In this document: piece after piece, positions 4,631-25,221 of the stretch | Layout of the letters: every line of letters starts with the position of its first letter | Position numbering within the stretch: the first letter of the stretch is position 1 | Virus record (IMG/VR): IMGVR_UViG_3300044832_000025 | Span: 1 to 25,221 of that record | Direction: 5' to 3' (one strand) | DNA: 25,221 bases | Source: a virus | Notes under the pieces: generated by a model | Told to the model about the DNA's origin: nothing | Database searches by the model: none | Seen by the model: only the letters and a program-made list of their open reading frames with translations | Made by a program: the position numbers and the translations under genes

Positions 4631-4644
4631 TTATTTACATTTAC
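4631..4644 (+). promoter_or_regulatory. Late-type promoter motif before the portal operon
   Basis: TTATTTACATTTAC, identical to copies at 13035 and 23524 and nearly identical at 19318. The embedded TACATTTA resembles the Bacteroidota -7 box. It follows the cassette terminator and precedes the head operon. No TTTG -33 element is seen 19-21 bp upstream, so activation by a phage factor is possible. Confidence 0.6.
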
Positions 4645-4652
4645 GTCCAATT

Positions 4653-4676
4653 ATGGGTTTCAACTTTAGTTTATGA
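4653..4676 (+). CDS. Possible 7-codon leader peptide before portal
   Basis: ATG GGT TTC AAC TTT AGT TTA TGA starts 8 nt after the late promoter motif. Its stop overlaps the portal ATG (ATGA, 4673-4676). If transcription begins near 4650, ribosomes could load at this ATG and re-initiate on portal. It is too short to support by itself. Confidence 0.2.
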   Translation: MGFNFSL

Positions 4677-5959
4677 ATTGGTTTCAACAACTCGGAGCCA
4701 ATATCTTTGGCCTAAACGATTACATTGTACAGCAATGGGGTAGTGATTTATTTATGCTCGACCCAAACGCCGATTTCACTAATTTTTCAAATGACAGACT
4801 AAAAGTTCAGGCTGTTTTTTCAAATCCAGCGATACTTAAAGTATTCAAGCTACAGTGCGATATGTTTAGCATGGGCGAGGTGTATGTTTACAGGAATGGT
4901 AAGGAAGTACCCAACGACCCGTTTATAACACTAATTAACAATCCTAATCCGTTTCAACAAAAATCTCAACTACTTTGGGACTACATGTTTTGGAAAATGA
5001 TTGGCAATGCATATTGCTATGTTGATTCCGATAGCGCGCAATCAGATACGAATAAGATGTATATGATGGATAGTTATAAAATGCTATTCCCATCAACAAT
5101 GAACGCATACCGGGATAAAATTGTGCTATCAAAAGCAACAGAAGCTGCAATTAACGACCTACCAATTACATATAACTATTCAGATGGTACAAGTCAGCAG
5201 ATAAAATGGGGACGTATTACATTTGTCCCTGATTTGAGCAACGGAACCGGCAATTGGTTTCGAGGCCCGTCATCAATTGACGCGCTTTACCAAATAATTG
5301 CAAACTCAAAAGCATCACCACGAAGCAAAAATGTTACAGTAAGATTTGCGGGTAAGTACATGGTTGCCGGGCAACAAGACCCGAATAATGTGCAGGAGTT
5401 GCCAATGTCAGAACCTGAACGTCAGGATATTGAAAGCAAAATGAACGGCGTTAAAACAGTTCATGGCGTTAAGTCAATGATTGACATTAAGCGTTTCGTT
5501 GAAAATTCAGCAGTAATTGAAGATTTAGATAAATCATATTGGGATGATTATTTTAAAGTTGGCTCATTGTTTGGCATACCGCGTGACGTGTTGGAGGCTT
5601 CATTAAGTGGTAGCACATACGAAAACCAGGAGATTGCCAGGGGCGCACATGTTGACTATACATTGCAGCCAGCCGGTGACCAATTCATGAACGCGCTAAC
5701 TAAAAGATTTGGGTATAGCACAAAAAGCATAGTTATAAAATGGGATCATTTGCCATTTACGCAGGCATCGGCTAAGTTGAAAAATCAGGGCCAATTGTTT
5801 TTATCACAGGCATTAATTAATTTTATGAAAGCTGGCGTAAAAGTTGACGAAATTAATTCTAACTTAGGAACTTCATTTACAAGTTTAGATTATGCAACAG
5901 CAAACGCAGCCCCAGTCCAAGCAGGAACGTCTAAAACAAGTGGCGGAAAAGGTGAATAA
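4673..5959 (+). CDS. Portal protein
   Basis: Dodecameric ring at the capsid vertex through which DNA is packaged and to which the tail is attached. The 428-residue protein matches HK97-type portals. Early helical segments with NPAILKVFKLQCDMFSMGEVYVY (residues 51 onward) precede the NPNPFQQKSQLLWDYMFWKMIGNAYCYV stem-like region. WGRITFVPDLSNGTGNWFRGPSSIDALYQII corresponds to the usual 'H-h-p...G-x-S' segment. Residues about 285-325 (YWDDYFKVGSLFGIPRDVLEASLSGSTYENQEIA) are the portal signature. The last 20 residues are a flexible Ala/Gly/Ser tail. It is the first gene of the head operon. A short ORF in another frame begins inside its 3' end. Confidence 0.9.
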   Translation: MNWFQQLGANIFGLNDYIVQQWGSDLFMLDPNADFTNFSNDRLKVQAVFSNPAILKVFKLQCDMFSMGEVYVYRNGKEVPNDPFITLINNPNPFQQKSQLLWDYMFWKMIGNAYCYVDSDSAQSDTNKMYMMDSYKMLFPSTMNAYRDKIVLSKATEAAINDLPITYNYSDGTSQQIKWGRITFVPDLSNGTGNWFRGPSSIDALYQIIANSKASPRSKNVTVRFAGKYMVAGQQDPNNVQELPMSEPERQDIESKMNGVKTVHGVKSMIDIKRFVENSAVIEDLDKSYWDDYFKVGSLFGIPRDVLEASLSGSTYENQEIARGAHVDYTLQPAGDQFMNALTKRFGYSTKSIVIKWDHLPFTQASAKLKNQGQLFLSQALINFMKAGVKVDEINSNLGTSFTSLDYATANAAPVQAGTSKTSGGKGE

Positions 5960-6017
5960 CCCAAAGTTAACACAACAGGTAAAAGAACGGTTGAAAGATA
6001 AAGAGGTTAAGAAATGA
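5892..6017 (+). CDS. Overlapping small basic protein (41 aa)
   Basis: A 41-residue ORF starts inside the 3' end of portal in another frame (68-bp overlap). It ends in the ATGA overlap with the prohead protease start (6014-6017). The product is Gln- and Lys-rich at the start and then one long charged helix (KQERLKQVAEKVNN followed by KLTQQVKERLKDK). It fills the otherwise unused gap between portal and protease, and the stop-start overlap suggests translational coupling. It could be a small head assembly factor, or merely a device to carry ribosomes to the protease gene. I do not recognise a family. Confidence 0.45.
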   Translation: MQQQTQPQSKQERLKQVAEKVNNPKLTQQVKERLKDKEVKK

Positions 6018-6820
6018 TTTACACGCTAAAACAATTCCCTGATAAGAAGTTCACCGACAAGATGGATCAGACCGCTTTTATCAAAAAGCGCATTAATGAA
6101 TTGTCGGCAATTAAAATAGCGGAGTATAAAACAGAATGTTCATACACTGTTAAGTCAGAATTGGTAAAGGAATTTAAACCACAGATTGAGCCCATTGTAA
6201 GCGACATAATTGAAGTAAAGGCAATAATCAATACCACCAATGTTATTGATTCTCACATGGATTTGCACTTGCAGGGCATTTGGAATAAAACAGTTAAGGA
6301 TAACCCTTATAACCCTGTGCTTAAACAGCACGAAAATAAGTTTGAAAGCGTAATAGCCAATAAGGCTAAAAACATAAATCAAAATATGAACTTCAAGGAT
6401 ATTGGAGTTGATATTGATTTTACAATGCAAGCTAATTGCAACATATTCACGGTTGACAAAAATAAACATCCGCTTATGTTCGACAAATACGCAAGCGGAG
6501 AAGTTGAACAACATTCGGTAGGAATGATATATGTTGACCTGGATATTGCCTATTATGACGAGTCTTCACAAAAAGAAATGGATTTCTTTGATTCCATGCT
6601 TTTACAATGCATCAACCCAGAAATAGCTGAAGAAGCTGGATATGTTTGGGTTATTCGTGAGGCTAAAAAAAGAGAAGGAAGCGCGGTAGTATTCGGTTCA
6701 AACCCTATTACACCGACACTATACGTAAAAAACTATCAGCCGCAACAAAGCACTGGTAAAAATGAGCCGCAAACAAGCACTCACCAATTAACAAAAATGT
6801 TTAACCCAAATTTTTATTAA
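6014..6820 (+). CDS. Prohead serine protease (HK97 U35-like)
   Basis: Maturation protease that cleaves the N-terminal scaffolding part of the capsid protein inside proheads. VIDSHMDLHLQGIW (residues 78-90) fits the family's early strand. H106 in VLKQHENK is the candidate catalytic histidine, HSVGMIYVDL at 167-176 matches the 'S-V-G' block, and S223 in REGSAVVFGSNP is the candidate nucleophile. The order H...S with these blocks is characteristic. The final 35 residues are Gln/Thr/Ser-rich and probably removed or flexible. Position between portal and a capsid gene with a long coiled-coil N-terminus supports the call. The third triad member could not be assigned. Confidence 0.82.
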   Translation: MIYTLKQFPDKKFTDKMDQTAFIKKRINELSAIKIAEYKTECSYTVKSELVKEFKPQIEPIVSDIIEVKAIINTTNVIDSHMDLHLQGIWNKTVKDNPYNPVLKQHENKFESVIANKAKNINQNMNFKDIGVDIDFTMQANCNIFTVDKNKHPLMFDKYASGEVEQHSVGMIYVDLDIAYYDESSQKEMDFFDSMLLQCINPEIAEEAGYVWVIREAKKREGSAVVFGSNPITPTLYVKNYQPQQSTGKNEPQTSTHQLTKMFNPNFY

Positions 6821-6822
6821 TC

Positions 6823-8133
6823 ATGTTCAAATACAAGAACGAAGAAGAGTTAAGCAAAATGACTGCGGCTGAAAGGGATAACTATTCAGATGAACTTCGC
6901 AAGCATAATGCTGCATTACTCAAAACAGCGGTCGACGAAGGAAACGCACCGTTGATTAAAACCATTGGCGAACAGGCCGAAACTATCAAAGGCTTAAAAA
7001 CCGAAGTAAACGAGGCCAAAGAAAAGGCAAATCAGGCAGTCGACGGTGCAAAATCACTTTCGCTTGTTTCAATTGAAAAACAGGTACGCGACTTCATTAA
7101 AGACAAATTTGAAGAAATTAAAGGCTTAAAGCAAAAAGGCCAAGGTTTCATAGAATTTGAAGTTAAGGCAGTTGGCAGCATGACAGCTGGTAACGCAATC
7201 GTTGATAATGGTGGCAGTTCAGGCACAGTAGGCAGCTCAACCAATCCGGACGGCATACCTGAATTGGTAGGCGTTCAGATGGCACCTCCAAGTCGTGTTA
7301 ATCTGCGTACCAACCTGATTAACGGGATGGTAAATAATTTCAGCACATCGCTTGCTGCTTATCCGTACACCGAAAGCATCCCCAAAGATGGCGATTTTGC
7401 ATTCCAATTAACAGAAGGTGCAGCCAAAGCACAGATAGACTTTAAAATCGAAACACGCTATGCGCAGCCGTTTACATTGGCCGCATGGGAACATCTTTCA
7501 GAGCAATCCGTACAGGATATACCCGGCCTGCAATCAATTGCAACTGGATTTCTGAAAGATAAGCACGACATCAAAAAGCAACGTGCTTTATTATTTGGCG
7601 ATGTGGCATTGGCTGCACTGGTTGGAGCTACTGAATATGGCCGTGCATTCGTTGCCGGGGCAATGGCAAACACAGTACGCTTCCCTAACTTTATGGATGT
7701 TGTAAACGCGGCTATTACCGATGTTTACACTACCCATAACTACCAGGATGAAATGCCGTACATGCCGTCATTAGTATTGGTTAATCCGATTGATTTCTTT
7801 GTGCATTTAGTTTCAGCTAAGGATGAGCGCGGTTTGCCACTATATCCGAACGCATCACTATTTAACCAAGTGCAAATCGGCGGCGTAACTATACTGCCAG
7901 AAGAAATGATACCGGCCGGAAAAATATTCGTTTCGGATATGAGCAAGTACAACGTATCAAACTACCTGGGGTATCGCGTTAAGATCGGTTGGATAAATGA
8001 TGACTTCATCAAAAACCAATTCGTTATACTTGGCGAGTCGCGTTTTCATGCCTACGTGAAGAAACTTGACCAACAGGCGTTTATTTACGATGATTATGCG
8101 ACTATTTTGGCCGCAATATCAGCAACCGTTTAA
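6823..8133 (+). CDS. Major capsid protein, HK97 fold, with N-terminal scaffold domain
   Basis: Forms the icosahedral shell. Residues 1 to about 115 are charged, helical and coiled-coil-like (for example AETIKGLKTEVNEAKEKANQ), as expected for the delta scaffolding domain removed by the adjacent protease. A Gly/Ser/Asn-rich stretch (about 118-145) marks the likely junction. The rest matches HK97-like capsids: the RVNLRTNLINGMVNN and IPKDGDFAFQLTEGAAKAQIDF regions, the EHLSEQSVQDIPGLQ spine, and a C-terminal block with LVNPIDFFVHLVSAKDERGLPL and an RVKIGWINDDFIKNQF strand. It starts 2 bp after the protease stop. The cleavage site cannot be fixed from sequence. Confidence 0.92.
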   Translation: MFKYKNEEELSKMTAAERDNYSDELRKHNAALLKTAVDEGNAPLIKTIGEQAETIKGLKTEVNEAKEKANQAVDGAKSLSLVSIEKQVRDFIKDKFEEIKGLKQKGQGFIEFEVKAVGSMTAGNAIVDNGGSSGTVGSSTNPDGIPELVGVQMAPPSRVNLRTNLINGMVNNFSTSLAAYPYTESIPKDGDFAFQLTEGAAKAQIDFKIETRYAQPFTLAAWEHLSEQSVQDIPGLQSIATGFLKDKHDIKKQRALLFGDVALAALVGATEYGRAFVAGAMANTVRFPNFMDVVNAAITDVYTTHNYQDEMPYMPSLVLVNPIDFFVHLVSAKDERGLPLYPNASLFNQVQIGGVTILPEEMIPAGKIFVSDMSKYNVSNYLGYRVKIGWINDDFIKNQFVILGESRFHAYVKKLDQQAFIYDDYATILAAISATV

Positions 8134-8136
8134 GCC

Positions 8137-8292
8137 ATGTTAGTAAAAGTAATAGGCAAGAAATTCGGACGCTACGAGGTAGGGGAAGAAATTGAAATGC
8201 ACGAAAGTACCGCTAAAGCCGTTGCGAAAAACGGACATGTTGAACTAATTGAAGGCAGCGAAAGCAAGCCTAAAAAAGGAGGTAAAAAGTGA
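8137..8292 (+). CDS. Small head-module protein (51 aa)
   Basis: A 51-residue ORF between capsid and the signal-peptide protein, starting 3 bp after the capsid stop. It begins with MLVKVIGKKFGRYEVGEEIEM, then AKAVAKNGHVELIEG, and ends in a Lys/Gly-rich tail. Small proteins with this 'vGeeiemheSTAKAVakNG' layout are common after phage capsid genes and are usually uncharacterised head proteins. Its TGA overlaps the GTG start of the next gene (GTGA, 8289-8292), supporting translation. Confidence 0.68.
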   Translation: MLVKVIGKKFGRYEVGEEIEMHESTAKAVAKNGHVELIEGSESKPKKGGKK

Positions 8293-8723
8293 AAAACTTA
8301 ATAAAAATAGGACTGTTATTGTTGGTTATGTCGGTAATTTCGCCGATAGTGAAAGGCCAGGGATTTAATAGCTCAAACGACTATGCGGGATCTATTGGCC
8401 CCGCAACAGTCACACATACAAATGCAATGGCAGATACTGTTTCATTGGCAATTGCCAAGAGCCGAACAGCGATAACGTTTAAATACGATATTGCTAAAAC
8501 AAGCGGTACCGTCGCTGGCACTATTGTTCTACAGGGTCGAATAACGGCAACAACAACCGCCGAACAATGGACTACGATCAATAGTTATACATTAACCGAT
8601 GCAACGGCGACTAATTCCGTTTCTTTAACCGCTAATCAGTATTTAAATTATCGAATTATAACGACGACGACAGGAACATCGGTAACTGTTCATCGAAAAT
8701 GGCTACTTTGTAGAGGGTATTAA
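8289..8723 (+). CDS. Signal-peptide-bearing beta-rich protein in the head module
   Basis: The 144-residue protein opens with a clear Sec-type signal: K2 and K6, a hydrophobic core IGLLLLVMSVISPIV, then VKGQG, with likely cleavage after about residue 23. The mature part is Thr/Ala/Ser-rich and strand-forming (TAITFKYDIAKTSGTVAGTIVLQGRIT...), like a beta-sandwich or Ig-like domain. It starts with GTG overlapping the upstream stop. Location between capsid and connector genes would suggest a decoration or head-fibre protein, but export is odd for a virion protein assembled in the cytoplasm. It may act in the periplasm or at the cell surface. I cannot assign a family. Confidence 0.7.
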   Translation: MKNLIKIGLLLLVMSVISPIVKGQGFNSSNDYAGSIGPATVTHTNAMADTVSLAIAKSRTAITFKYDIAKTSGTVAGTIVLQGRITATTTAEQWTTINSYTLTDATATNSVSLTANQYLNYRIITTTTGTSVTVHRKWLLCRGY

Positions 8724-8725
8724 CA

Positions 8726-9283
8726 ATGGCAAACATAGTCACTACCGCTGATTTCATTGGTCAAAATAACATACCTGACAAAGCTACGTACGGCGAAAAT
8801 TTGACGTGGTTTATAACTAAGTATGAGCCTATTTTGATGACTAAACTACTCGGTAGTGACTTGTATGTGCTTTTAAAAGCATCACCTACAAGCGCGAGGT
8901 TTGTAGCAATTATTGATACATATTTAAAACCAGCTATCGTAGATTACGTGTACTGGTTTTACTTGGAAGACCAGGGAACGCAATTAACCAGCTTAGGCGC
9001 TTCGCAGAACAAAAAGCAAAACGCTAAATCCGTTAGTCCTTACCCTAAAATGGTGAGGGCATGGAATGAGATGGTGGAGTATAACCGAAATTTGCATAAG
9101 TACTTAACCGATAACGCCGCAACCTATCCGGAGTATGTAAATACGTTTCCGGAGTGGTTTTTCGGTTGGGGATTTTGGTCGGGTACGTGGCAGTGTTGGT
9201 TTTTTGATTGGAGTAATTGGGGTGGCGAATTTGGCAATTGCGTTGATGAAATTTACAGGATTAAAAATACGTTGGGGATATGA
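8726..9283 (+). CDS. Head-tail connector-like protein with tryptophan heptad
   Basis: A 185-residue, mainly helical protein in the position of a head-completion/connector protein. It resembles DUF6712-type connectors of Bacteroidota phages in layout (an early TADF segment, then YLKPAIVDYVYWFYLEDQG), though this is from memory of the family and not from a search. The C-terminal part holds seven tryptophans at 144, 148, 151, 155, 158, 162 and 165, a perfect 4-3 spacing, then GG and a closing helix. It starts 2 bp after the previous stop, and its TGA overlaps the next ATG (9280-9283). Confidence 0.65.
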   Translation: MANIVTTADFIGQNNIPDKATYGENLTWFITKYEPILMTKLLGSDLYVLLKASPTSARFVAIIDTYLKPAIVDYVYWFYLEDQGTQLTSLGASQNKKQNAKSVSPYPKMVRAWNEMVEYNRNLHKYLTDNAATYPEYVNTFPEWFFGWGFWSGTWQCWFFDWSNWGGEFGNCVDEIYRIKNTLGI

Positions 9284-9834
9284 GGGCAAAGCCTGTTTAT
9301 GTAGTTGACCTAATCAAGGACGTTGTAACAGCGACAAATACCGCTGTTATAGCAGAACTACAGTCGGCTAAACCATTTATACAGGCGATAAACTTCATAC
9401 CAGGCACAGAGGGAGAGATTACAGACGTATTGACGCTAATGAGTCAGCAGTACACAAAGGATGGTAAACAATGGCCGTTATTCGCATTATTGATGTCATT
9501 CCCTGAAAATAAAGCCCCTGAAGTTGGTATAGATGGCAGCGTTGAGTTAAATATCGTTATCGCAATGGTAAGCAAGCCGGAAGATAAAACGCCCGACAGG
9601 TACGCCAATAACTTTAAGCCGGTTTTATACCCGATTTACTTGGAGTTTTTAAACCAAGTGTATTTATCAGGCAAGTTCAGCGTTTCGACACCCGACAATA
9701 TTCCGCATGTAAAATGGGATTTCCCATATTATAATTCGGATAAACAGGTAAATGTGTTCAATAGTTATGTTGATGCAATACAAATTAAAATTAAATTAAA
9801 AATCTTGCTGAGCGCGGTTAACCGCTGTGTATAA
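9280..9834 (+). CDS. Probable head-tail joining / tail completion protein
   Basis: A 184-residue mixed alpha/beta protein with a helical start, strands through VELNIVIAMV, a Pro/Tyr-rich middle (NNFKPVLYPIYLEFLNQVY) and a C-terminal strand pair (VDAIQIKIKLKILL). The size, the fold pattern and the place between connector and tail tube genes fit a tail-terminator or neck protein. No motif clinches it. It is coupled to the upstream gene by an ATGA overlap. Confidence 0.55.
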   Translation: MRAKPVYVVDLIKDVVTATNTAVIAELQSAKPFIQAINFIPGTEGEITDVLTLMSQQYTKDGKQWPLFALLMSFPENKAPEVGIDGSVELNIVIAMVSKPEDKTPDRYANNFKPVLYPIYLEFLNQVYLSGKFSVSTPDNIPHVKWDFPYYNSDKQVNVFNSYVDAIQIKIKLKILLSAVNRCV

Positions 9835-9853
9835 GCGTAAACAATTAAATATT

Positions 9854-10090
9854 ATGGGTCAAATTATTATAGAAATGGAGTGCGCAAGCACTAAACAGGG
9901 TAGGCCATACACGTACAATGGTAAAACCCAAAGACAACACGATATTGCTTTTGATATACCCTATAAAGATGGGAATATTTTTTCGCAACTATCGGGAGGT
10001 ACTGCACTTAATTTATTAACCGTAAACGATGATGCCGTTGCTGATATAGCACCGGGTAAAAAATATCGTGTAACTATTGAGGAGATATAA
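9854..10090 (+). CDS. Small conserved-position protein before tail tube (78 aa)
   Basis: A 78-residue beta-leaning protein, MGQIIIEMECASTKQGRPYT..., ending YRVTIEEI. The frame also offers a GTG at 9827 inside the previous gene. I prefer the ATG at 9854, 20 bp after the upstream stop, because the product then begins at a clean strand. It precedes the tail tube gene by 2 bp and may be a small neck or tail accessory protein. The family is not recognised. Confidence 0.55.
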   Translation: MGQIIIEMECASTKQGRPYTYNGKTQRQHDIAFDIPYKDGNIFSQLSGGTALNLLTVNDDAVADIAPGKKYRVTIEEI

Positions 10091-10092
10091 TC

Positions 10093-11040
10093 ATGGGAGT
10101 AAAAAATGTAAAAGTTGCCTGCGTCACAGACAATGGCAATACACGGGTAGGCGACTGCTGGAATGATATAGGTGTACCGAGGGCGGTTATATTCGTTCCA
10201 AAGAATAAGACCTATACCACCGTTAGTATAGCCGCGTTTTTGGCAGCATTCCTGCCCGACCTGCTTAATGATCACCCTTCAGGACGGGCTTATCCTGTTC
10301 AAAATATCGTAGAGGTTACCGACAGCACCACTGCGCCGAATGTACAAACATTCCCCGGCGACGGTTCACAGATCATCAGCGGCGAAAATGCATATACAAT
10401 GAAGTACCGTTGGATTGATGGTGGTTTCTGTTTGCAGCATTCATTAAGACAGTCAAAAGGTCAAACAAAGGCGTTCTTTATCGTTGATTCATTCGGCCAA
10501 TTAATAGGCACCGATGGAGGTGTTGACTTAATTAAGGGTATCGTTGGGTATAACTATACCGAGCCATTTAAATTCGCTACAACAAATGCCGCAGTAGCTG
10601 ATTATAACACCATGTTATCATTCAGGCCGGAACAGGTTAACGAAAATATAGCTATATTGGACTTTGCCAACGATGGCGGTTTGGCATACCTGTCAAGTTT
10701 GGAGGGCTTGTTCAATGTAGATATCAGCCAGGCCGCCGCACCTACATCAACACACGTTAAGGTTAAGGCAGTTGTTAGCGGTTGCGGATCTACTGACCTG
10801 TACGACCTGTACGCCGATGCATTGGCCGTACCTGGTGCATGGGCTGTTACGCGGGTTGATACTGGCGGAACAATTGCCGTATCAGCGGTTGCTAAATCTG
10901 CCGTGTTTAACGGATGGGATTTGACCCTAACTGCCGCTACCGGGTTAACTGTAAATGTTGCGTTGGTAGGGCCTACCGAATTAGACGCGCTCGACGTGTC
11001 GGGCTATGCAAGTAATAAACTTGTTCAAATAATACCGTAA
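10093..11040 (+). CDS. Major tail (tube) protein, probable
   Basis: A 315-residue beta-rich protein that by position and size should be the tail tube subunit. The N-terminal 200 residues look like the tube domain (PRAVIFVPKNKTYTT, YTMKYRWIDGGFCLQHSLRQSKGQ, FFIVDSFGQLIGTDGG). From about residue 215 a separate Ala/Val/Thr-rich strand region (THVKVKAVVSGCGSTDLYDLY...) resembles an Ig-like decorating domain, often added to tail tube proteins of siphophages. Its TAA shares one base with the ATG of the next small ORF (TAATG). Confidence 0.72.
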   Translation: MGVKNVKVACVTDNGNTRVGDCWNDIGVPRAVIFVPKNKTYTTVSIAAFLAAFLPDLLNDHPSGRAYPVQNIVEVTDSTTAPNVQTFPGDGSQIISGENAYTMKYRWIDGGFCLQHSLRQSKGQTKAFFIVDSFGQLIGTDGGVDLIKGIVGYNYTEPFKFATTNAAVADYNTMLSFRPEQVNENIAILDFANDGGLAYLSSLEGLFNVDISQAAAPTSTHVKVKAVVSGCGSTDLYDLYADALAVPGAWAVTRVDTGGTIAVSAVAKSAVFNGWDLTLTAATGLTVNVALVGPTELDALDVSGYASNKLVQIIP

Positions 11041-11165: not shown

Positions 11166-11168
11166 AGT

Positions 11169-11196: not shown

Positions 11197-11197
11197 G

Positions 11198-12587: not shown

Positions 12588-12938
12588 TTAATCTTGTTCA
12601 GCAAATCTTTTAGCGTTATAATAATCAAGATACAATTGTCTTATGCTCGATGGATACGTATTTACAGCCACACGGATATCATTGATTGACATTTTACGCA
12701 TATCATTTTCAGATGGCGCGTAAAACATGTTAAAAACGGTTTCGTAGAAATCAACCTTTTTAACCCTTATACCTTTGTTTTTGCCAAAGTTTTTGTCTGA
12801 CATTAGATATATTATACCGTTTGTGCATTTAATAGTAAAATCAGCAAGCCACCATAAATCAGCACTATTTATACCAAATTCAGTAGGTGTAATTTCAAAG
12901 TCGAACTTATCACCCCTTACTTCATATATATTGTTCAT
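12588..12938 (-). CDS. Hypothetical protein (116 aa), first gene of the minus-strand island
   Basis: A 116-residue soluble protein with a strand-rich N-terminal half (KFDFEITPTEFGINSADLWWLADFTIKC) and a helical C-terminal half containing MSINDIRVAVNTYPSSIRQLYLDYYN. I recognise no family. It is first in the operon driven by cassette promoter C (12981-13012), with a leader of about 40 nt. No signal peptide, membrane segment or catalytic motif is visible. Confidence 0.6.
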   Translation of the reverse strand: MNNIYEVRGDKFDFEITPTEFGINSADLWWLADFTIKCTNGIIYLMSDKNFGKNKGIRVKKVDFYETVFNMFYAPSENDMRKMSINDIRVAVNTYPSSIRQLYLDYYNAKRFAEQD

Positions 12939-12980: not shown

Positions 12981-13012
12981 TAAATCTACCTACAATAAAT
13001 CACAATTACAAA
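12981..13012 (-). promoter_or_regulatory. Cassette promoter, copy C
   Basis: On the minus strand: TTTG (13012-13009), a 20-bp spacer ending in TTTATTGTAGG, then TAGATTTA (12988-12981). The spacer block TGTGATTTATTGTAGG is the closest to the consensus of all four copies. It drives the seven-gene minus island. Confidence 0.75.
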
Positions 13013-13034: not shown

Positions 13035-13048
13035 TTATTTACATTTAC
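13035..13048 (+). promoter_or_regulatory. Late-type promoter motif, copy before the 13052 gene
   Basis: TTATTTACATTTAC, identical to copies at 4631 and 23524. The GTG start of the next gene lies 3 nt after the motif. It is back-to-back with cassette promoter C. Confidence 0.65.
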
Positions 13049-13051
13049 GAG

Positions 13052-13504
13052 GTGGGAACAATCAATAATCTATATAAACGCTTCGCCGCGCTTGACTTTG
13101 AATTAATCAAGCAGCAGTCGCTTATAGAAACAGCCCCCCAAGTCATACCCGAAATGACAGAACAGCAACAGCGGTTAGGGCAACGGAGTGACGGGGAAAT
13201 GATAGGGTATCTGCATGACCCGGTATACGCAATGGGTAAAACAGAATCAGGCGGACAAGCCCCGCCCGGTGAAGTTGATTTGCGATTAACCGGCTCGTTT
13301 CAAGCGGGATTGAGGACTGTTGTAACGTCTGTTAGTTTAAAAACTTATTCGTTAGATGTAAAGGCAGCTAAGCTTGAAAGTACTGGCAAAGGCGGCTATG
13401 GGCCGTTAATATACGGGGCCAATAAAGAGAATCTGAGCAAATACGCCAAAGAAAACTTACTGCCGGATTTAATGCATAAGTTAAAGAGTGCTACAGTTGG
13501 TTAA
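13052..13504 (+). CDS. Probable tail completion / minor tail protein (150 aa)
   Basis: A 150-residue protein with a GTG start 3 nt after the late promoter motif. It is helical at the N-terminus, then has a GEVDLRLTGSFQAGL segment that resembles phage neck and tail-completion proteins, followed by strands (VSLKTYSLDVKAAKLES) and a closing helix. It stands alone between two minus-strand cassettes, so it has probably been separated from the connector genes by their insertion. The last 14 bp overlap the end of the convergent gene at 13491. The function is suggested by position and the LTGSF motif only. Confidence 0.55.
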   Translation: MGTINNLYKRFAALDFELIKQQSLIETAPQVIPEMTEQQQRLGQRSDGEMIGYLHDPVYAMGKTESGGQAPPGEVDLRLTGSFQAGLRTVVTSVSLKTYSLDVKAAKLESTGKGGYGPLIYGANKENLSKYAKENLLPDLMHKLKSATVG

Positions 13505-14291: not shown

Positions 14292-14299
14292 TATATTTG
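14292..14299 (+). promoter_or_regulatory. -7-like box before the tape-measure operon
   Basis: TATATTTG matches TAnnTTTG and lies 7 nt before the ATG at 14307, preceded by a T-run as in the late motif copies. No TTTG is seen at -33. Confidence 0.5.
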
Positions 14300-18379: not shown

Positions 18380-19000
18380 TCACCCCCATTGGTCGGCCAT
18401 TGCGGCGGCAATTACGGGCCAAAATTTTGAACGCTTTTTAAATGATGTACCCGAACCATTACCGCCTGATTGAGCATCGGTAAAATAACGTTTTTTGCCT
18501 TTTTTATCAACAAAAGTTGGCTTTGGTTTATCGGTTGCGGTACGTTCGCCAAATAAATCATCGTGCATCCTGTATTTCAGCGGCGGAAGATTTTTTAACC
18601 AGAGTTGCGTCCGCTTTAATTGCGGTTCACCGAAGTAATACGGATTTACAACTTGGTCTGCTTTACGAATTACAGCATCGGCACAACCTTGCGGATTTTC
18701 AATACAAATTTTTGGTATATCCGACGTCAATAGTTGGTTAAAAAACATCAATGCCTCCAACCTTAATTTTGCGCGTCCCGGATTATCCCAATATGCGGTT
18801 GCGGCATAAGTAATATAAGTGCATGGCGGGAATGCAACCATTAAATCAAAACCGTCATTTATTATATCAAACACATCTCCCTGATAGTGTGGGCCCGGCG
18901 ATTCTGTAGCTAATAAATCGCAACTTATAGCATCGTGACCTTTGGCTAAAAAAGCATCCCGGACTATGCCGGAATACTCGCATGCAACAAGTACTTTCAT
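18380..19000 (-). CDS. Cytosine C5 DNA methyltransferase-like protein
   Basis: A 206-residue protein of the short phage DNA cytosine methyltransferase type. The start MKVLVACEYSGIVRDAF and CDLLATE correspond to the AdoMet-binding region. FPPCTYI (P58-P59-C60) is motif IV with the catalytic cysteine, and IENPQG (E101-N-P) is motif VI. The end, FKKRSKFWPVIAAAMADQWG, is typical of these phage proteins. It is much shorter than restriction-linked C5 methyltransferases and has no obvious target-recognition domain, so its specificity, and even its substrate, are uncertain. It could protect phage DNA from host restriction. No partner nuclease is nearby. It is the second gene of a minus cassette after the 61-aa ORF. 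Confidence 0.8.
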   Translation of the reverse strand: MKVLVACEYSGIVRDAFLAKGHDAISCDLLATESPGPHYQGDVFDIINDGFDLMVAFPPCTYITYAATAYWDNPGRAKLRLEALMFFNQLLTSDIPKICIENPQGCADAVIRKADQVVNPYYFGEPQLKRTQLWLKNLPPLKYRMHDDLFGERTATDKPKPTFVDKKGKKRYFTDAQSGGNGSGTSFKKRSKFWPVIAAAMADQWG

Positions 19001-19053
19001 AATTACGCAGGAATTGCCATAAAGTCCATTTTAGCCGATATACTCCATGCCTT

Positions 19054-19239: not shown

Positions 19240-19264
19240 TTTTTGTGGTTATTTAATTACAATA

Positions 19265-19296: not shown

Positions 19297-19317
19297 TAAA
19301 ATGTAATATTTATTTTT

Positions 19318-19331
19318 TTAATTACATTTAC
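19318..19331 (+). promoter_or_regulatory. Late-type promoter motif, copy before the 791-aa tail gene
   Basis: TTAATTACATTTAC differs by one base from the other copies (TTATTTACATTTAC). The ATG at 19335 lies 3 nt after it. It is back-to-back with cassette promoter D. Confidence 0.65.
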
Positions 19332-19334
19332 CCT

Positions 19335-21710
19335 ATGAATTTAAACAATCTCATAAAACAATTCCTGTTCAAATTAGACATTCGCGGGATTGATACCGAA
19401 ACGTTGCCTAACGCCCCGACCGGATGGCGCGAAATGATAGTCGAATACTCCAGGTCAAAAACCTACAGCGGCATACTACGCAACATCACCGGCCAACTGG
19501 ATTTTATAGGCAAAGCAGCTTACATACTTCGCCGGGAATATGCCAAGTACCGTTTAATGGCGCGTGTAAATTTCTTAATCGACCGTGATACAAGGCAACC
19601 CTATAACACATACTCCAACTTGTATACCGGCCAAATTGACTTCTCCAAAAAAGTAGACAAACAAGGCACATTTACGGTAGGTGCAAAATCATTGGACTTC
19701 TCACAGAATATCGATGCCTACGATAGTCAACAGTACACTATACCATTAACAGGTGGTATCAACTTAGAATTGCCAGGTATCCAATTGACCGAAAACCCTC
19801 AACTAATATTTTCAACATCCCCCGATTTCCGTTCAAATGCTTTTTTTGAAATGGAAATAGCATCTTATAACCAAATGAGTATTGCACCGTCGGTATCAGG
19901 TCAGGGGTTTTTGGCAAGCGATGCACCAGTGTTTGAGGTTGGCACATCACCGCATTTTTTCACGGCGCAAGTTGACGGGAAATTGCAATTACAGGGAGAT
20001 ATAGCCAGTTCTGTTAATTCAGGGCAATTTCAGTTCAATATTTATAGCACTGGCGGAACATTGGTAAAAACACTCTTTCAAACTCCCGTATATTCAACAA
20101 CTACCCAAACTAATTTCAACTGGAATTTTACTATAAACGTAACTAAAGGTGAATCGTTATTTTTCTACATAAAACGCACTGCTGGCGGAGGCGGAACGTT
20201 CCAGGGCGTTAATATGCAAAACGGATCGTTATTATTATTTTATAATACAATCACACCGCCGACAATGTGCCAGGCGTTAAGCGGACACCAATTATTTGCA
20301 GCGTTATTACAGGCGATGAACGTAAACCAGGATAGCGGCCCTAACTTACCAGTTGCGTATCAATCGTTTTTGCTTAACGGGGCATTGCGTCCACTATACT
20401 TTACCAGTTCTGACAGCATACGGGCAGCACAGGGCAGTATTTTCAAGGCTGGAGATACCATAGGGCCCGGTGTATATAAAGTCATTACAGCAGAATCTAT
20501 TACTTATAGCGGCACGACATATACAACCGGGCAGCAATTTCCATTTATTGTGACTGCGGTTACGTTTACCGGCGATGGAGCGGTTCAAAAGATACAAAGC
20601 ATTTTAGTGGGTGCATTGTATAATATTGGCGATTCTTTGCAATCGGGCGGCACTTATTTGGTCGAGGGGTTAAATAATGGGCATGTTACATATAACGCAA
20701 CAACTTATAACATCGGTGATTTCTTTAAATATGTTTTAGGGCAGGAAACATTTACGGGTAGCGATGATTCGATGTTTGTTAAGCAGATTGCAATTGACCC
20801 GCAAATAATAATTTCGTTTGCTGATTTTTTTCAGTGTATCAAATCAGTTCAAGGCGGCGATTGCGCGTTTGGAGTTAATCCTAAACCATTTATTGAAACG
20901 CTTGCAAATGTGTTCATGTCAGGCGGAACTACTAATTTAGGCAACGTTCCGAAAGATTGGCAGTCTGAATGTGCTACGGATATGTTGTATAATACGATTA
21001 AAGTAGGGCAAAATGATCAACAATATGATGCGGTAAACGGGGTGCAAGAGGTTAGTAGTGAACAATATTACTCATCCGCGCAATTAATGCCGGCAACTGA
21101 ATTAAACCTAATTTCATCAGTCCGGTTCGATCCGTACGGAATTGAAACAGTACGGATAACGCAAAATGATACAGCAGCTTCACGGTCGGATAATAATACA
21201 TTCGGGGTATGGATAAATACAACGCCTGTATCAACAACGCCGTTCGAGTATTACAGACCGCTAAGTTCATCGGACGGAACATTGCAGATTAGCGGTGTAT
21301 CTCCGTCATATTATAACTTCAAACTCAGCCCTAAAACAAATCTTTTACGAGGATCACGTTATTTAGCTTCCATATTTTACAACATGCCAGGCTATCAACT
21401 ACGGTTAACGGGATATGAGAAAAACGTTGGAATGAGTTATATCGGACTGGATGGGATCAAGATATCTGAAAGCGCACCTATTGACATGTTGGGGTTAGGA
21501 TCACCGTACTTTATACCGGAATACTATACAATGACGATACCTGGTGGATTGATCGATACGAATAGTTACGCAGATATGGCATTCACCGTTAATGGCAATA
21601 TTATGCGCGGATTCGTTATGTCTTATAAATGTAACTTCGCTAATAATGTGCCGCAGCCTGTTAAGTTGCTTTTAGGGCCTGGGAATGATTTGGGGAAATC
21701 GGTGAGGTGA
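19335..21710 (+). CDS. Large distal tail / baseplate protein (791 aa)
   Basis: A 791-residue beta-rich protein after the tape measure, so a distal tail or tail-associated structural protein. The first 135 residues (WREMIVEYSRSKTYSGILRNITGQLDFIGKAAYIL, then LIDRDTRQPYNTYSNLYTGQIDF) look like the domain that mounts it on the tail. Residues about 137-310 are strand-rich, like a jelly-roll. Two related segments at about 371-420 and 430-485 look like an internal duplication. The C-terminal 300 residues include VNPKPFIETLANVFMSGGTTNLG and a YYTMTIPGGLID segment. No hydrolase motif was recognised. Bacteroidota phages often carry such long uncharacterised tail proteins here. Confidence 0.7.
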   Translation: MNLNNLIKQFLFKLDIRGIDTETLPNAPTGWREMIVEYSRSKTYSGILRNITGQLDFIGKAAYILRREYAKYRLMARVNFLIDRDTRQPYNTYSNLYTGQIDFSKKVDKQGTFTVGAKSLDFSQNIDAYDSQQYTIPLTGGINLELPGIQLTENPQLIFSTSPDFRSNAFFEMEIASYNQMSIAPSVSGQGFLASDAPVFEVGTSPHFFTAQVDGKLQLQGDIASSVNSGQFQFNIYSTGGTLVKTLFQTPVYSTTTQTNFNWNFTINVTKGESLFFYIKRTAGGGGTFQGVNMQNGSLLLFYNTITPPTMCQALSGHQLFAALLQAMNVNQDSGPNLPVAYQSFLLNGALRPLYFTSSDSIRAAQGSIFKAGDTIGPGVYKVITAESITYSGTTYTTGQQFPFIVTAVTFTGDGAVQKIQSILVGALYNIGDSLQSGGTYLVEGLNNGHVTYNATTYNIGDFFKYVLGQETFTGSDDSMFVKQIAIDPQIIISFADFFQCIKSVQGGDCAFGVNPKPFIETLANVFMSGGTTNLGNVPKDWQSECATDMLYNTIKVGQNDQQYDAVNGVQEVSSEQYYSSAQLMPATELNLISSVRFDPYGIETVRITQNDTAASRSDNNTFGVWINTTPVSTTPFEYYRPLSSSDGTLQISGVSPSYYNFKLSPKTNLLRGSRYLASIFYNMPGYQLRLTGYEKNVGMSYIGLDGIKISESAPIDMLGLGSPYFIPEYYTMTIPGGLIDTNSYADMAFTVNGNIMRGFVMSYKCNFANNVPQPVKLLLGPGNDLGKSVR
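20445..20789 (+). repeat. Internal duplication in the 791-aa tail protein
   Basis: Two roughly 50-55-residue segments share the order 'GD-x-x-x-x-G-x-Y-x-V', 'ITYSGTTY' / 'VTYNATTY', then 'TFTG' followed by an acidic pair and K-I/K-Q-I. The match is at protein level; DNA identity is low. Confidence 0.5.
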
Positions 21711-21716
21711 AATAAA

Positions 21717-21748
21717 TTTGTTTATGTAGTTTATTGTAGGTACATTTA
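21717..21748 (+). promoter_or_regulatory. Cassette promoter, copy B
   Basis: TTTG (21717-21720), a 20-bp spacer with AGTTTATTGTAGG, then TACATTTA (21741-21748). It drives the Thg1-like gene with a leader of about 30 nt ending ACCACAATATG. Confidence 0.75.
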
Positions 21749-21784
21749 CAATGCCGTAATTCAGCGGCAGTAAAATACCACAAT

Positions 21785-22510
21785 ATGAATAATGATAGTC
21801 TTGGCGACCGCATGAAGTCGCTTTATGAAAACAGAACCCGTTTTCAATTATCCGGCAGAAACTATACCCTAATCCGAATAGATGGCAAGGCCTTTCACAC
21901 ATACACAAAGGGATTAGTTAGGCCGTTTGACCAACAATTGATATTTGATATGGATGAAACAGCTTGCTTTTTATGCAAAAACATTCAAGGCGCTAAATTT
22001 GCGTTTGTTCAATCAGATGAAATATCAATTCTATTAACCGATTTCGATAGTTTAACTTCGCAAGCGTGGTTTGATGGAAACGTTCAAAAAATGGTTAGCA
22101 TTAGTGCAAGCTTGGCAACTGCAAAATTTAACGAATTACGACCGGGAAAATTAGCAATGTTTGATTCACGTGTGTTCCAGATTAGCGATAAAGTTGAGGT
22201 TGAAAATTACTTCATTTGGAGACAACAAGATTGTACACGCAATTCAATATCATCGGTTGCACAAAGCCTATATTCTCCAAAGCAACTTCATGGTAAAACA
22301 ACTAATGATATGCAGGAATTAATATTCCAAAAAGGCATTAACTGGAATGACTATGACGTTAAATTAAAACGTGGCCGAATGATAATAAAGCAAAGTTTTG
22401 AAAGGAACGGCGCAATACGTAGTTCATGGGGGTCAATCGGCGCTGAAATATTTACACAGGAACGTTGGTTTATTTCAAAATTTATTCCCGACCGCCATAT
22501 TAATCCATAA
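21785..22510 (+). CDS. Thg1-like tRNA(His) guanylyltransferase / 3'-5' polymerase
   Basis: Thg1 and Thg1-like proteins add nucleotides to the 5' end of tRNA, the reverse of normal polymerases; bacterial and phage members mostly repair 5'-truncated tRNAs. The match is strong: LGDRMKSLYE at 6-15, the metal-binding RIDGKAFHTYTKG from residue 31 (D33, G34), QSDEISIL at 76-83 (D78, E79), WFDGNVQKMVSISASLATA near 95-113, then FDSRVF and the family block NYFIWRQQDCTRNSISSVAQ at 141-160, then SPKQLHGKT. At 241 aa it is full length for a phage member. It is a single-gene cassette with promoter B upstream and a terminator downstream, between two tail genes. Confidence 0.92.
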   Translation: MNNDSLGDRMKSLYENRTRFQLSGRNYTLIRIDGKAFHTYTKGLVRPFDQQLIFDMDETACFLCKNIQGAKFAFVQSDEISILLTDFDSLTSQAWFDGNVQKMVSISASLATAKFNELRPGKLAMFDSRVFQISDKVEVENYFIWRQQDCTRNSISSVAQSLYSPKQLHGKTTNDMQELIFQKGINWNDYDVKLKRGRMIIKQSFERNGAIRSSWGSIGAEIFTQERWFISKFIPDRHINP

Positions 22511-22538
22511 GTTAAGTGGTATTTCCTTATGCGGTTAT

Positions 22539-22564
22539 AAGCCTCGTTTCGGCGGGGCTTTTTT
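22539..22564 (+). terminator. Terminator after the Thg1-like gene
   Basis: Stem AAGCCTCG (22539-22546) with CGGGGCTT (22553-22560), one G-T pair, a TTTCGG loop and a following T-run. Confidence 0.8.
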
Positions 22565-22566
22565 CA

Positions 22567-22597
22567 TTTGCAAATCCCAAAACAATCACTATCTTTA
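22567..22597 (+). promoter_or_regulatory. Possible promoter of a short transcript
   Basis: TTTG (22567-22570), 19 bp, TATCTTTA (22590-22597), a near-consensus -33/-7 pair directly after the Thg1 terminator. No ordinary gene follows on this strand before the next terminator. Confidence 0.45.
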
Positions 22598-22602
22598 TTC
22601 CG

Positions 22603-22663
22603 GATAAGATGTTATATTTTGGATTTAGGGGGCGGCAATTTCGTAAGGAGTTGCCGTTTTTTT
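22603..22663 (+). ncRNA. Candidate small RNA, about 60 nt
   Basis: The interval between the promoter at 22567-22597 and the terminator at 22633-22663 would give a short RNA with a 3' intrinsic terminator hairpin. It is supported only by this promoter-terminator pairing. A 27-codon ORF begins within it at 22609, so a small mRNA is an alternative. Confidence 0.3.
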
Positions 22664-22692
22664 ATGGTAAAAGCGACCGGAGCCGCTTTTAA
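22609..22692 (+). CDS. Possible basic micropeptide (27 aa)
   Basis: ATG at 22609, 11 nt after the -7-like box, opens a 27-codon frame for an Arg/Phe-rich basic peptide (MLYFGFRGRQFRKELPFF...), ending at 22692. Both hairpins in the interval lie inside it, which argues against efficient translation. Confidence 0.15.
   Translation: MLYFGFRGRQFRKELPFFYGKSDRSRF
22633..22663 (+). terminator. Intrinsic terminator
   Basis: CGGCAA (22633-22638) pairs with TTGCCG (22651-22656), 12-nt loop, then seven T. It is strong on the + strand. Confidence 0.75.
22669..22690. terminator. Symmetric hairpin terminator for the minus-strand PAPS-reductase-like gene
   Basis: AAAAGCG (22669-22675) pairs with CGCTTTT (22684-22690) around an 8-nt loop. 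Flanking A and T runs allow termination in both directions. It lies about 46 bp downstream of the minus gene's final stop (22737). Confidence 0.6.
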
Positions 22693-22736
22693 TAACCGTC
22701 AAAATTAACTACCACGTTGAAGCTGAGCGGTTAGTA

Positions 22737-22985
22737 TTATGAAGTGCAACTGCATGAATAAGCAGGCAATATATCATCTATTGGGAATAGTGGCACTTGT
22801 CGTTGTGCTAAGTTTAATAACTGTATGTATGTTATATCTGAAAAATATTGCGCTTTTGCATAGTTCTTTTTCTTGCTCATATATTCTTCGTCCTTTATCC
22901 ATTTATCTGCCAATTCAGGATACATTTGCAATATCCTAATAATTGCGTTTTTGCCCTTTAAAAAACATAAATCGCAATTACCCAA
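22737..22985 (-). CDS. C-terminal part of a frameshifted PAPS-reductase-like gene
   Basis: The frame encodes LGNCDLCFLKGKNAIIRILQ, then a MYPELADKWIKDEE helix and a Cys-containing tail ending SCSCTS. In phage PAPS-reductase-family proteins the block 'LGNCDxCFLK' normally follows directly on the part encoded by the upstream ORF 22978-23484, which ends ...VHLG. The two frames overlap by 8 bp and differ by one base. Joined, they give about 248 residues, a normal family length. This piece has only a TTG in place to start alone, so it is best read as the continuation of the upstream ORF, reached by +1 frameshifting or cut off by a one-base insertion. Confidence 0.65.
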   Translation of the reverse strand: MGNCDLCFLKGKNAIIRILQMYPELADKWIKDEEYMSKKKNYAKAQYFSDITYIQLLNLAQRQVPLFPIDDILPAYSCSCTS

Positions 22986-23484
22986 GATGGACGGTAAATT
23001 CTAAATGATATGGTTTTGTTTGCCAAAATTGGTTTACCATTTCTTTTGTTATCCCAAGTTCGTTTAAAACGAACTTGGGAACGGATTGCTTATAGGTTGG
23101 CCTAAATCTTGCTATTCTTTGTTTTTCATCAAACCTAAAACCGATATGCTGTTCAAACTTCATTCCGATAAGTGGTCGCAAATATCTACGAGCGGTAATT
23201 ACCTTTAATTCCGTAGTGCAAATACGCTTCATTTTATTTGGTAAATAACATTTAGATTCAATCATTGCATCAAATCCAGTCATTCCGGGTGCTTTTTTAT
23301 TTGTGTAAGTGGCCCGATGTACCCGAATACCCTCGAACGCTTCAAAGTCATTTATGAATTTATATGTTTTTGGATGTTCACGTCCAGTGTCGCAAAATAA
23401 GACTATATCATCTTCGGTTGGTTTTAAAAGAATAGTCATGTATGCGGATGTTTTGCCGCCTGAAAAGTTTATAACACGCTTCAT
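22978..23484 (-). CDS. PAPS reductase-like (PP-loop) protein, N-terminal part, frameshifted
   Basis: ATP-pyrophosphatase-type (PP-loop) protein of the PAPS reductase/DndC superfamily. The PP-loop is SGGKTSAYM (residues 8-16), followed by FCDTGREHPKTYKFI at about 30-44 and the family block KCYLPNKMKRICTTELKV (about 78-95), which carries cysteines. Phage members are common but their substrate is generally unknown; options include sulfur activation for nucleic-acid modification. True PAPS reduction is doubtful without a visible C-terminal ECGLH-type motif. The frame stops after residue 168, and the conserved C-terminal domain continues in the +1 frame (22737-22985). The leader reads ACCACAAAAAAATG, like two other cassettes. 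Confidence 0.78.
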   Translation of the reverse strand: MKRVINFSGGKTSAYMTILLKPTEDDIVLFCDTGREHPKTYKFINDFEAFEGIRVHRATYTNKKAPGMTGFDAMIESKCYLPNKMKRICTTELKVITARRYLRPLIGMKFEQHIGFRFDEKQRIARFRPTYKQSVPKFVLNELGITKEMVNQFWQTKPYHLEFTVHLG

Positions 23485-23523
23485 TTTTTTGTGGTAGTTA
23501 ATGAATTACGAATTTACAAAATT

Positions 23524-23537
23524 TTATTTACATTTAC
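23524..23537 (+). promoter_or_regulatory. Late-type promoter motif, copy before the fibre gene
   Basis: TTATTTACATTTAC, identical to the copies at 4631 and 13035. The ATG at 23541 lies 3 nt after it. It is back-to-back with the minus PAPS-reductase-like gene. Confidence 0.65.
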
Positions 23538-23540
23538 ACC

Positions 23541-25221
23541 ATGGCAGGACATTTCGAGATTTCCCCTTACTTTACATTCCGTTGGTGCGATAACGACATA
23601 ACCAGTCCATACAACACATTACCCCTCGAAAGCCAGGTAGATGACCTATCCTATCACCAACCCGTACAATGCGGCGGTGGTGGCTACCAATCCGATACAT
23701 GCCAAATACAACTAACATCTGATTTCGTACCTACTGGCAGCTTGCATGATTTCGATACAAACGAATTTATAAAGGCCATTGATTTTGTACCGCTTGACCC
23801 GCCAATATTGGGTTACTCTTTTGTGGGCTATAACGCTGAAATTGATTTCAGCGACGTTGACCCCGGCACGTACTATGGTAAAATAAACTTTACTGATTCC
23901 GACCTGATAACCCACGATTGGCGTACCAATCCGCTTGACGTGCAGATATACCATGAGGGAACGCAATTATTAGAGGCGACCAACTTCACCAATGATAAGG
24001 GCGTTGTATTCGTTAATTCAGACCTGACAACATTAACTATTCGTAAGCGTATCGGCTCGTTAATCCGCTCACCATTGGTTAAGGCCGATGCAGATGATTA
24101 CGAAGATCAGTACAACGATTTGACACAGGAAACATCTGTTCCATTCGTAACATACACTCAATTGTTATACGGCGCAAATGGATTTCTACTCCCATTTTAC
24201 GAGATTGAAAAAATAAATTTGTTATATTCGCTTAATCAAGTTTTAATAGATGGCAACCCGTTCGCTAAAATCGCAAAATCAGACTTCAAGCCAACACGCG
24301 GCGACACTTATCCGCAGGGAGCATGGTGGGAGGTCGATATTCAGCCGAATTTCAACTATCCAAACGAACAATTTATTACAGGCACACCACCGGATGGGGA
24401 ATATATTGTGATAAAAAAACAGGTCACATATCTTAATAAATCGGCCAACTTCGCAGTTACTGGCATATTTTCAGCACGTAAAAACCTGATAAGAATAGCA
24501 ATTGTTAATAATGGGGGGGATATTGTTACGGTACTTGTTGGAAATGCAGAAGGCGACTCAACTTACGGCACTCTCGTTTTGCCCGTTGATGCAACCGATA
24601 GTATCGACATTGGCCGATTATTTAAGATACCTACTACCGTTTGGATTAGCGGTATTGCCGGGGCTGATTTGGATATAACATTTGACTATAATGATTATGC
24701 GGCTGCGGCTGTAACGCCACCAACAAGTACCAGCTCATTCGCGAAAAATACATTATACTTTTTTGAGGAAATTGTACCCGATTCTTTTGCGACTGAATTT
24801 GACATTTCGACAGGATTAGGGCAAGTAGGATCTGACCATGAGGGCTGCGCTTTAGCAGATGGCAGAAATGGAATGCCCGATAGGAGGGGATTGATTCCGC
24901 GCGTTTGGGACAGCTTAGAAGTTTTTCCATTAGCGACCCGTGGAACTGAAATAGGTAATAACTCCGTAACGATTGCATTAAATCAAATGCCATTACACAA
25001 CCACATGATTGCTAATGGTGACGTTCATGGCGGAGGACCTGGCGGCGACTTAGGGCCGGGTGGAATATTAATTCGTAAATGGGATTCGGGCATCAACGCT
25101 GCATATAACCTGCAACAATCCTCTACTGCACCTGATAGGGGCACAACATCTAATGCCGGGGCGGGTGACCCTATAGATGTTACTAACAGGGCTATGATAT
25201 TGGCAGCCTTTTATTTTATAG
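23541..25221 (+). CDS. Tail fibre / tail-collar-domain protein, 3'-truncated by the window edge
   Basis: The frame is open for 560 codons from the ATG at 23541 to the end of the window without a stop. The N-terminal 400 residues are strand-rich with no recognised domain. From about residue 430, ADGRNGMPDRRGLIPRVWD and later ALNQMPLHNHM match the phage tail collar pattern ('nGtPDLRGRF...' followed by 'lP.HnH'), which is common in receptor-binding fibres and microcollar proteins. A Gly-rich loop with GGGPGGDLGPGG follows. It therefore probably takes part in host adsorption. The start lies 3 nt after a late promoter motif. Confidence 0.8.
   Translation, partial: MAGHFEISPYFTFRWCDNDITSPYNTLPLESQVDDLSYHQPVQCGGGGYQSDTCQIQLTSDFVPTGSLHDFDTNEFIKAIDFVPLDPPILGYSFVGYNAEIDFSDVDPGTYYGKINFTDSDLITHDWRTNPLDVQIYHEGTQLLEATNFTNDKGVVFVNSDLTTLTIRKRIGSLIRSPLVKADADDYEDQYNDLTQETSVPFVTYTQLLYGANGFLLPFYEIEKINLLYSLNQVLIDGNPFAKIAKSDFKPTRGDTYPQGAWWEVDIQPNFNYPNEQFITGTPPDGEYIVIKKQVTYLNKSANFAVTGIFSARKNLIRIAIVNNGGDIVTVLVGNAEGDSTYGTLVLPVDATDSIDIGRLFKIPTTVWISGIAGADLDITFDYNDYAAAAVTPPTSTSSFAKNTLYFFEEIVPDSFATEFDISTGLGQVGSDHEGCALADGRNGMPDRRGLIPRVWDSLEVFPLATRGTEIGNNSVTIALNQMPLHNHMIANGDVHGGGPGGDLGPGGILIRKWDSGINAAYNLQQSSTAPDRGTTSNAGAGDPIDVTNRAMILAAFYFI

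Follow-up and report, generated by a model that had tools for sequence, protein, structure and literature searches.

The window analysed here is a 25.2-kb viral DNA record (IMG/VR IMGVR_UViG_3300044832_000025, all 25,221 nt of it) that holds the structural half of a tailed phage, and a 14-nt motif, TTATTTACATTTAC, recurs ahead of its late operons. From sequence comparison we conclude that, in this virus of Bacteroidota bacteria and in many of its relatives, transcription of most late operons very probably starts on or near the start codon of their first gene, so that the late messages would be leaderless or nearly so. The gene order runs from the end of a helicase/primase gene through the terminase small and large subunits, portal, major capsid protein, tail genes, tape measure and a 791-amino-acid (aa) virion protein to a tail-fibre-type gene, with accessory or opposite-strand genes between the structural operons. 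Relatives of the virus are mostly metagenomic contigs; the named phages near it are Leeuwenhoekiella phage Arctus_1 by capsid protein (56%) and Olleya phage Harreka_1 by portal (39%).

The late motif and its distance to start codons

Exact copies of TTATTTACATTTAC lie at 4631–4644, 13035–13048 and 23524–23537, and a copy with one mismatch lies at 19318–19331; a search of both strands of the window returned precisely the copies and coordinates that an earlier, sequence-only reading had listed. When up to two mismatches were allowed, the same four matches were the only ones on either strand, all of them on the plus strand. An AT-rich genome might yield AT-rich 14-mers and TAnnTTT boxes near starts by chance, and about one match with up to two mismatches is indeed expected in the window. 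Dinucleotide shuffles of the window, however, gave a mean of 1.07 matches with a maximum of 3, and none of 100 reached four; among 200 third-order Markov simulations, just one held any complex 14-mer in triplicate.

Exactly 3 nt separate the motif from GTG13052, ATG19335 and ATG23541. The open reading frames (ORFs) that begin at these codons have no upstream in-frame ATG, GTG or TTG, and ORFs 13052 and 19335 have no further in-frame ATG until past residues that align with homologues. We regard these three start codons as secure. The 3-nt spacing described in the sequence-only reading holds at these three sites; at the portal copy (4631), 28 nt separate the motif from ATG4673.

Within the 14-mer, the -7 box is TACATTTA, which differs from the sigma-A consensus TAnnTTTG at the last base only. 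In Flavobacterium psychrophilum the sigma-A -7 box TAnnTTTG is located at -12 to -5 (PMC9723704), and in F. johnsoniae the gap from box to transcription start is 4 or 5 nt (PMC6847099). Applied to the boxes at 13040–13047, 19323–19330 and 23529–23536, this spacing predicts +1 at 13052, 19335 and 23541, where it would coincide with the start of the start codon, in agreement with the placement proposed earlier for a -7 box at these three copies. For the portal operon the same spacing predicts a leader of 25 nt. Boxes 6 nt before the terminase ATG and 7 nt before the tape-measure ATG were likewise found as had been described. The late promoters, their genes and the terminator next to one of them are as follows.

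2298–2301, plus strand: -33 element (TTTG) of the terminase promoter, separated by 19 nt from the -7 box at 2321
2321–2328, plus strand: -7 box TAACTTTG of the terminase operon, 6 nt before ATG 2335; predicted transcription start 2333, 2-nt leader
4590–4621, plus strand: terminator hairpin of the gene preceding the portal promoter (fold -16.2 kcal/mol, z -5.6)
4631–4644, plus strand: late motif of the portal operon (box 4636–4643); predicted transcription start 4648, ATG 4673, 25-nt leader, not leaderless
13035–13048, plus strand: late motif of the tail gene (box 13040–13047); predicted transcription start 13052, the first base of GTG
13052–13504, plus strand: tail protein gene with GTG start (phrog_6195), predicted leaderless
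14292–14299, plus strand: -7 box TATATTTG of the tape-measure operon, 7 nt before ATG 14307; predicted transcription start 14304, 3-nt leader
19318–19331, plus strand: late motif with one mismatch, of the 791-aa virion protein gene (box 19323–19330); predicted transcription start 19335, the A of ATG
19335–21710, plus strand: gene for the 791-aa virion structural protein (phrog_15220, E 2.4e-26), predicted leaderless
23524–23537, plus strand: late motif of the tail-fibre-type gene (box 23529–23536); predicted transcription start 23541, the A of ATG
23541–25220, plus strand, running off the window: tail-fibre-type gene (phrog_8469, E 6.8e-7), predicted leaderless

Five nucleotides past the predicted portal transcription start lies a seven-codon ORF (4653–4676, MGFNFSL) whose stop codon TGA overlaps the portal ATG. 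A comparable seven-codon ORF (MQFNPNI) lies 4 nt after the motif in the relative L007, immediately ahead of the portal gene. The short product is a possible coupling peptide.

The same distance in related phages

More than 100 related viral sequences were examined, the relatives being the best 80 per scan in a lineage in which more than 300 contigs encode one. In a first set of 1933 predicted genes, from which near-identical upstream regions had been removed, boxes were counted upstream of candidate ATG starts, and expected counts were taken from larger distances upstream. TAnnTTTG occurred 36 times at 3–5 nt from starts versus 7.8 expected (P 1.7e-13), and TAnnTTT[GA] 66 times versus 17 (P 1.7e-19). 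A second set consisted of 57 new contigs collected through a portal alignment and fetched after the prediction had been fixed, less the sequences resembling the first set; it gave 38 boxes at 3–5 nt versus 9.0 expected (P 5.6e-13), with a mode of 4 nt. Among 30 permuted motifs, only ATnnTTTG, which is the box shifted by one base and is contained in TATATTTG, gave a comparable peak. With a peak that recurs in an independent contig set and is particular to the box, and with shuffles that never give four matches, an origin of the pattern by chance is scarcely credible, unless the removal of redundant sequences went badly wrong.

Other queries were less productive. A single terminase protein used against genome contigs found no relative, whereas a terminase alignment found eight, mostly distant, with no 3–5 nt peak at these loci; the 791-aa protein gave one distant match and the fibre protein none.

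The motif itself, searched together with its spacing as the sequence-only reading had proposed, recurs 3–4 nt before late-gene ATGs in G001 and G002. In G001 (IMGVR_UViG_3300010375_000005), the closest record, with a terminase 88% identical, it lies 3 nt from the ATG of the 805-aa orthologue of the 791-aa protein and of a small Cys-rich ORF, 4 nt from that of a 1117-aa fibre-type gene and 13 nt from that of the portal gene. G002 has two copies, each 4 nt from an ATG. Other relatives carry plain TAnnTTTG or TAnnTTTA at equivalent places, the exact sigma-A box TAnnTTTG being present in many. For instance, the terminase orthologue of L005 has TAGATTTA 4 nt before its ATG and the equivalent TTTG at a spacing of 20 nt, boxes stand 4 nt from the ATG of the tape-measure gene in L073 and L075, and the L073 orthologue of the 791-aa gene is preceded by TTATTTACATTTGG, 3 nt and ATG. 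L005 and L008 retain the motif at the same position ahead of the portal gene, where their predicted leaders are shorter than that of the window. At 12 of 48 loci, tail orthologues have boxes 4–5 nt ahead of the start. L005 18457 (MGTI..., 63 aa) was considered as the orthologue of the gene at GTG13052 and rejected, since it is a small gene of its own that precedes the tail gene; the comparison for this start codon therefore rests on L021 (TATCTTTG, 4 nt, ATGGGAACGATT) and others. Among all box-to-start cases the start codon is nearly always ATG, with GTG in the tail genes of the window and L007 and in the terminase gene of L240. What the lineage shares would be the distance to the start codon, the box itself being variable.

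Two near-identical sites in the cultured phage Harreka_1 (MT732457, 8681 and 38581), with the box 5 nt before ATG, and one such site in Arctus_1 (PP314354, 30526) make these named phages practical test systems. The late 5′ ends are predicted at or within 1 nt of the two Harreka_1 positions and within about 2 nt of the Arctus_1 position. The ORF at Harreka_1 (L244) 38581, between the terminase and portal genes, is absent from the record annotation, and its TATCTTTG box context is identical to that of gene 10 (8681). Two further unannotated products, the Cys-rich microproteins MRCICGACLENCQCCKAIIELLNKLSA (L073 10194, minus strand) and MCQCGQCEICLCHKPEPVEAAKR (L075 7211), start 3–4 nt after the late motif, ahead of a fibre-type gene. 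In L019, two heads of the leaderless type (9118 and 18901) have TATAACAATGTGTTATNNTTGTTATATTT upstream in common at differing distances from the box; this sequence could be the binding site of a regulator.

Operon heads, promoter classes and the activator question

The motif might instead be a translation-initiation signal within a longer leader, with transcription starting further upstream. It does stand at a fixed short distance from start codons, and AT-rich signals 5′ of starts are known in Bacteroidota (PMC3160421). However, the box is almost missing from operon-internal genes, although these need translation too: among non-redundant orthologues, a strict box lies 3–5 nt from the start in 43/234 operon heads versus 4/309 operon-internal genes (Fisher P 4.7e-13). 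The heads counted were the terminase small subunit, portal, tail, tape-measure and 791-aa-type genes; the capsid gene is an example of an internal one. The box also often has a terminator on its upstream side, with the start codon on the other. Of 60 distinct heads, 17 have a hairpin with a T-run that ends 11–15 nt (once 24 nt) before the start codon, and two such hairpins, when folded, gave z-scores of -5.8 (L094) and -7.7 (L237). A terminator ending 11–15 nt from the start codon leaves room for the -7 box only and none for a leader, and together with the restriction to heads this argues against both a translation signal and long leaders. Since the same phages also have the same box at leadered distances with a -33 element (see below), we consider a translation signal very improbable. 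As for base composition, A stands at -3 in 61% of operon-internal starts, an A-rich Bacteroidota context, versus 42% of leaderless-type starts, whose upstream bases are partly fixed by the box, and G depletion at -10/-9 as a promoter signature was not significant.

Very probably, TTATTTACATTTAC is the late-promoter form of the window phage, with the -7 box TACATTTA, a T-rich stretch upstream and mostly no -33 element. In most late operons RNA polymerase, presumably with host sigma-A, would initiate at the first gene's start codon or within about 3 nt of it, and ribosomes would begin on the 5′-terminal AUG (once GUG). Later genes of the late operons would be translated with ordinary Bacteroidota initiation sequences, and accessory genes would use TTTG-N18–21-TAnnTTT[GA] promoters with leaders of about 10–40 nt.

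Several observations weigh against leaderless late messages. Their 5′ ends are predictions from box position, made from sequence only. The late box of the window has A instead of G at its last base, GTG13052 would be an unusual start codon for a leaderless message, and the portal operon has its predicted 25-nt leader. A strict box at 3–5 nt is present in just ~18% of head orthologues (30% for the tail gene), the remaining ones having weaker boxes or leaders, and the P values given for the peaks assume independence of related loci after the removal of near-identical upstream regions. The earlier proposal of leaderless or near-leaderless structural operons is well supported by the comparative peak, the restriction to heads, the terminators and the Flavobacterium spacing, but does not hold for every structural operon, as the portal operon and the ~18% figure for heads indicate.

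Two promoter classes differ in the -33 element. A TTTG at 18–21 nt accompanies 33/223 boxes lying 9–47 nt from starts versus 7/66 boxes at 3–5 nt (4/38 in the second set), proportions that are not far apart because chance boxes dilute both groups. For boxes 12–35 nt from starts, TTTG peaks at spacings 19–21 (15/76), whereas the leaderless set has no clear peak, its 7 cases at spacings 18–21 versus about 4 expected from other spacings being unconvincing. Upstream of the box, the leaderless set is enriched most clearly for T, at positions -5 and -4 relative to the box, which matches the first half of the 14-mer. This T-rich half would fit the AT-rich element near -18 of F. johnsoniae promoters, which show little -33 signal (PMC6847099). 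Of the promoters in the window, those of the leadered class with a -33 element lie ahead of accessory genes (4004, 21785 and 12938 minus) and those of the late class ahead of structural genes. A hybrid of the two is the terminase promoter, which has a -33 element and a predicted 2-nt leader. The leadered accessory promoters are these.

3937–3968, plus strand: TTTG-N20-TATATTTA, 35 nt to ATG 4004
12981–13012, minus strand: TTTG-N20-TAGATTTA, 42 nt to the ATG that begins at 12938 on that strand
21717–21748, plus strand: TTTG-N20-TACATTTA, 36 nt to ATG 21785 (Thg1 gene)

Between -33 and -7, all three, and also leadered promoters of L073, have a common element near TTGTNATTGTGATTWATTGTAG, as if bound by one regulator.

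The sequence-only reading had taken the missing -33 element to point to a phage activator. The absence itself is confirmed for most late boxes, although not for the terminase promoter, which has TTTG at 2298–2301. A requirement of the late promoters for an activator or sigma factor encoded by the phage is possible but rather doubtful. Boxes at 3–5 nt mostly lack TTTG at 18–21 nt (59/66, and 34/38 in the second set), and stretches in common are longer within one phage than between phages (mean 8.4 versus 6.9 nt, P 0.005), a similarity that is partly due to adjoining divergent promoters. G001 encodes a DnaN-type sliding clamp (L074 851–2056, minus strand; PF00712, E 5.8e-15), which may recall T4 late transcription and is a weak hint, by itself no evidence. 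On the other hand, host promoters are generally weak at -33, as F. johnsoniae illustrates, host sigma-A should be able to read the plain TAnnTTTG of which many leaderless boxes consist, and the -33 box of the terminase promoter is a good one. Sigma70 region 2 or 4 (PF04542, PF08281) had no match in 22 relatives, with control genomes positive, although some records are fragments and diverged or non-sigma factors could escape. The need for a phage activator is therefore not established. An extended form of the idea is unlikely: late promoters without a -33 element would fire via a phage-specific factor while infection shifts host ribosomes (for example free 70S, altered IF3 or S1) to leaderless messages. 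Virion proteins would then be made in preference to those of leadered host mRNAs.

The window holds several further features. Thg1 (tRNA-His guanylyltransferase) is phage-encoded at 21785–22510 (PF04446, E 1.7e-24), and genes for a DNA methyltransferase (18380–19000, minus strand) and a PAPS-reductase-family protein (22978–23484, minus strand) lie on the opposite strand between late operons. The non-coding stretch 1066–1340, 3′ of the helicase/primase gene, contains direct and inverted repeats of AACTCTGTAAACTTTT, with up to four exact 14-mer copies, and resembles iterons, an origin or a partition site. A repeat of the GCCTCCGCCGCCTAC type at 4320–4480, inside ORF 4004–4561, encodes an Ala/Ser/Tyr-rich run.

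Hosts, other phages and known systems

Two Flavobacteriaceae chromosomal stretches showed the usual leadered distances, with no significant excess at 3–5 nt (17 versus 12.2 and 8 versus 5.2), and six named Bacteroidota phages of other lineages, including crAss001 and B124-14, showed none (5 versus 6.2). Within the limits of this small sample, the feature therefore belongs to the lineage of the window. To our knowledge, promoters of the Pribnow type are not used by the host phylum. In line with the chromosomal counts, leaderless mRNAs make up 5.5% in F. psychrophilum (PMC9723704), and 5′ untranslated regions under 10 nt make up 3.7% in Bacteroides thetaiotaomicron (PMC7366714); a genome survey of leaderless genes that used Pribnow-like boxes only scored 1/37 Bacteroidetes/Chlorobi genomes (PMC3160421). 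Phage transcripts were often leaderless according to a Bacillus phage paper (PMC5312081), and we found no description of leaderless late messages in Bacteroidota phages among open-licence papers.

Shine-Dalgarno initiation is missing in Bacteroidota and leaderless mRNAs are few there, so the arrangement described here bears on how their phages get virion proteins made efficiently. It gives clear predicted 5′ ends and compact late promoters for Bacteroidota genetics. It also suggests a gene-start rule for these phages, in which TAnnTTT[GA] 3–5 nt upstream marks a likely true start codon and operon head.

Compared with known systems, the late motif resembles Bacteroidota housekeeping promoters (sigma-A/sigma-ABfr, TTTG/TAnnTTTG) in its -7 box, its predicted 4–5 nt spacing from box to start and its AT-rich upstream stretch; it differs in being placed on the start codon, in mostly lacking the -33 element and, in the window, in the A at the last base of the box. 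The leaderless mRNAs of Bacteroidota hosts likewise begin at or close to the start codon, and the phylum has no Shine-Dalgarno sites; these mRNAs come from scattered genes, whereas the predicted ones here are concentrated at the late operon heads of one phage lineage. T4 late promoters consist of a single -10-like element, TATAAATA, served by gp55, gp33 and gp45, and T4 late messages have leaders with Shine-Dalgarno sites. The promoters described here are similarly single-element promoters ahead of structural genes, with a sliding clamp in the closest relative; unlike in T4 late transcription, no sigma-like protein was found in the 22 relatives. Classical leaderless phage messages, such as lambda cI from PRM and P2 gene V, also have the transcription start on the start codon. 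Those classical cases are single genes of proteobacterial phages, whereas here several structural operons per genome, in many genomes, would be transcribed in this manner.

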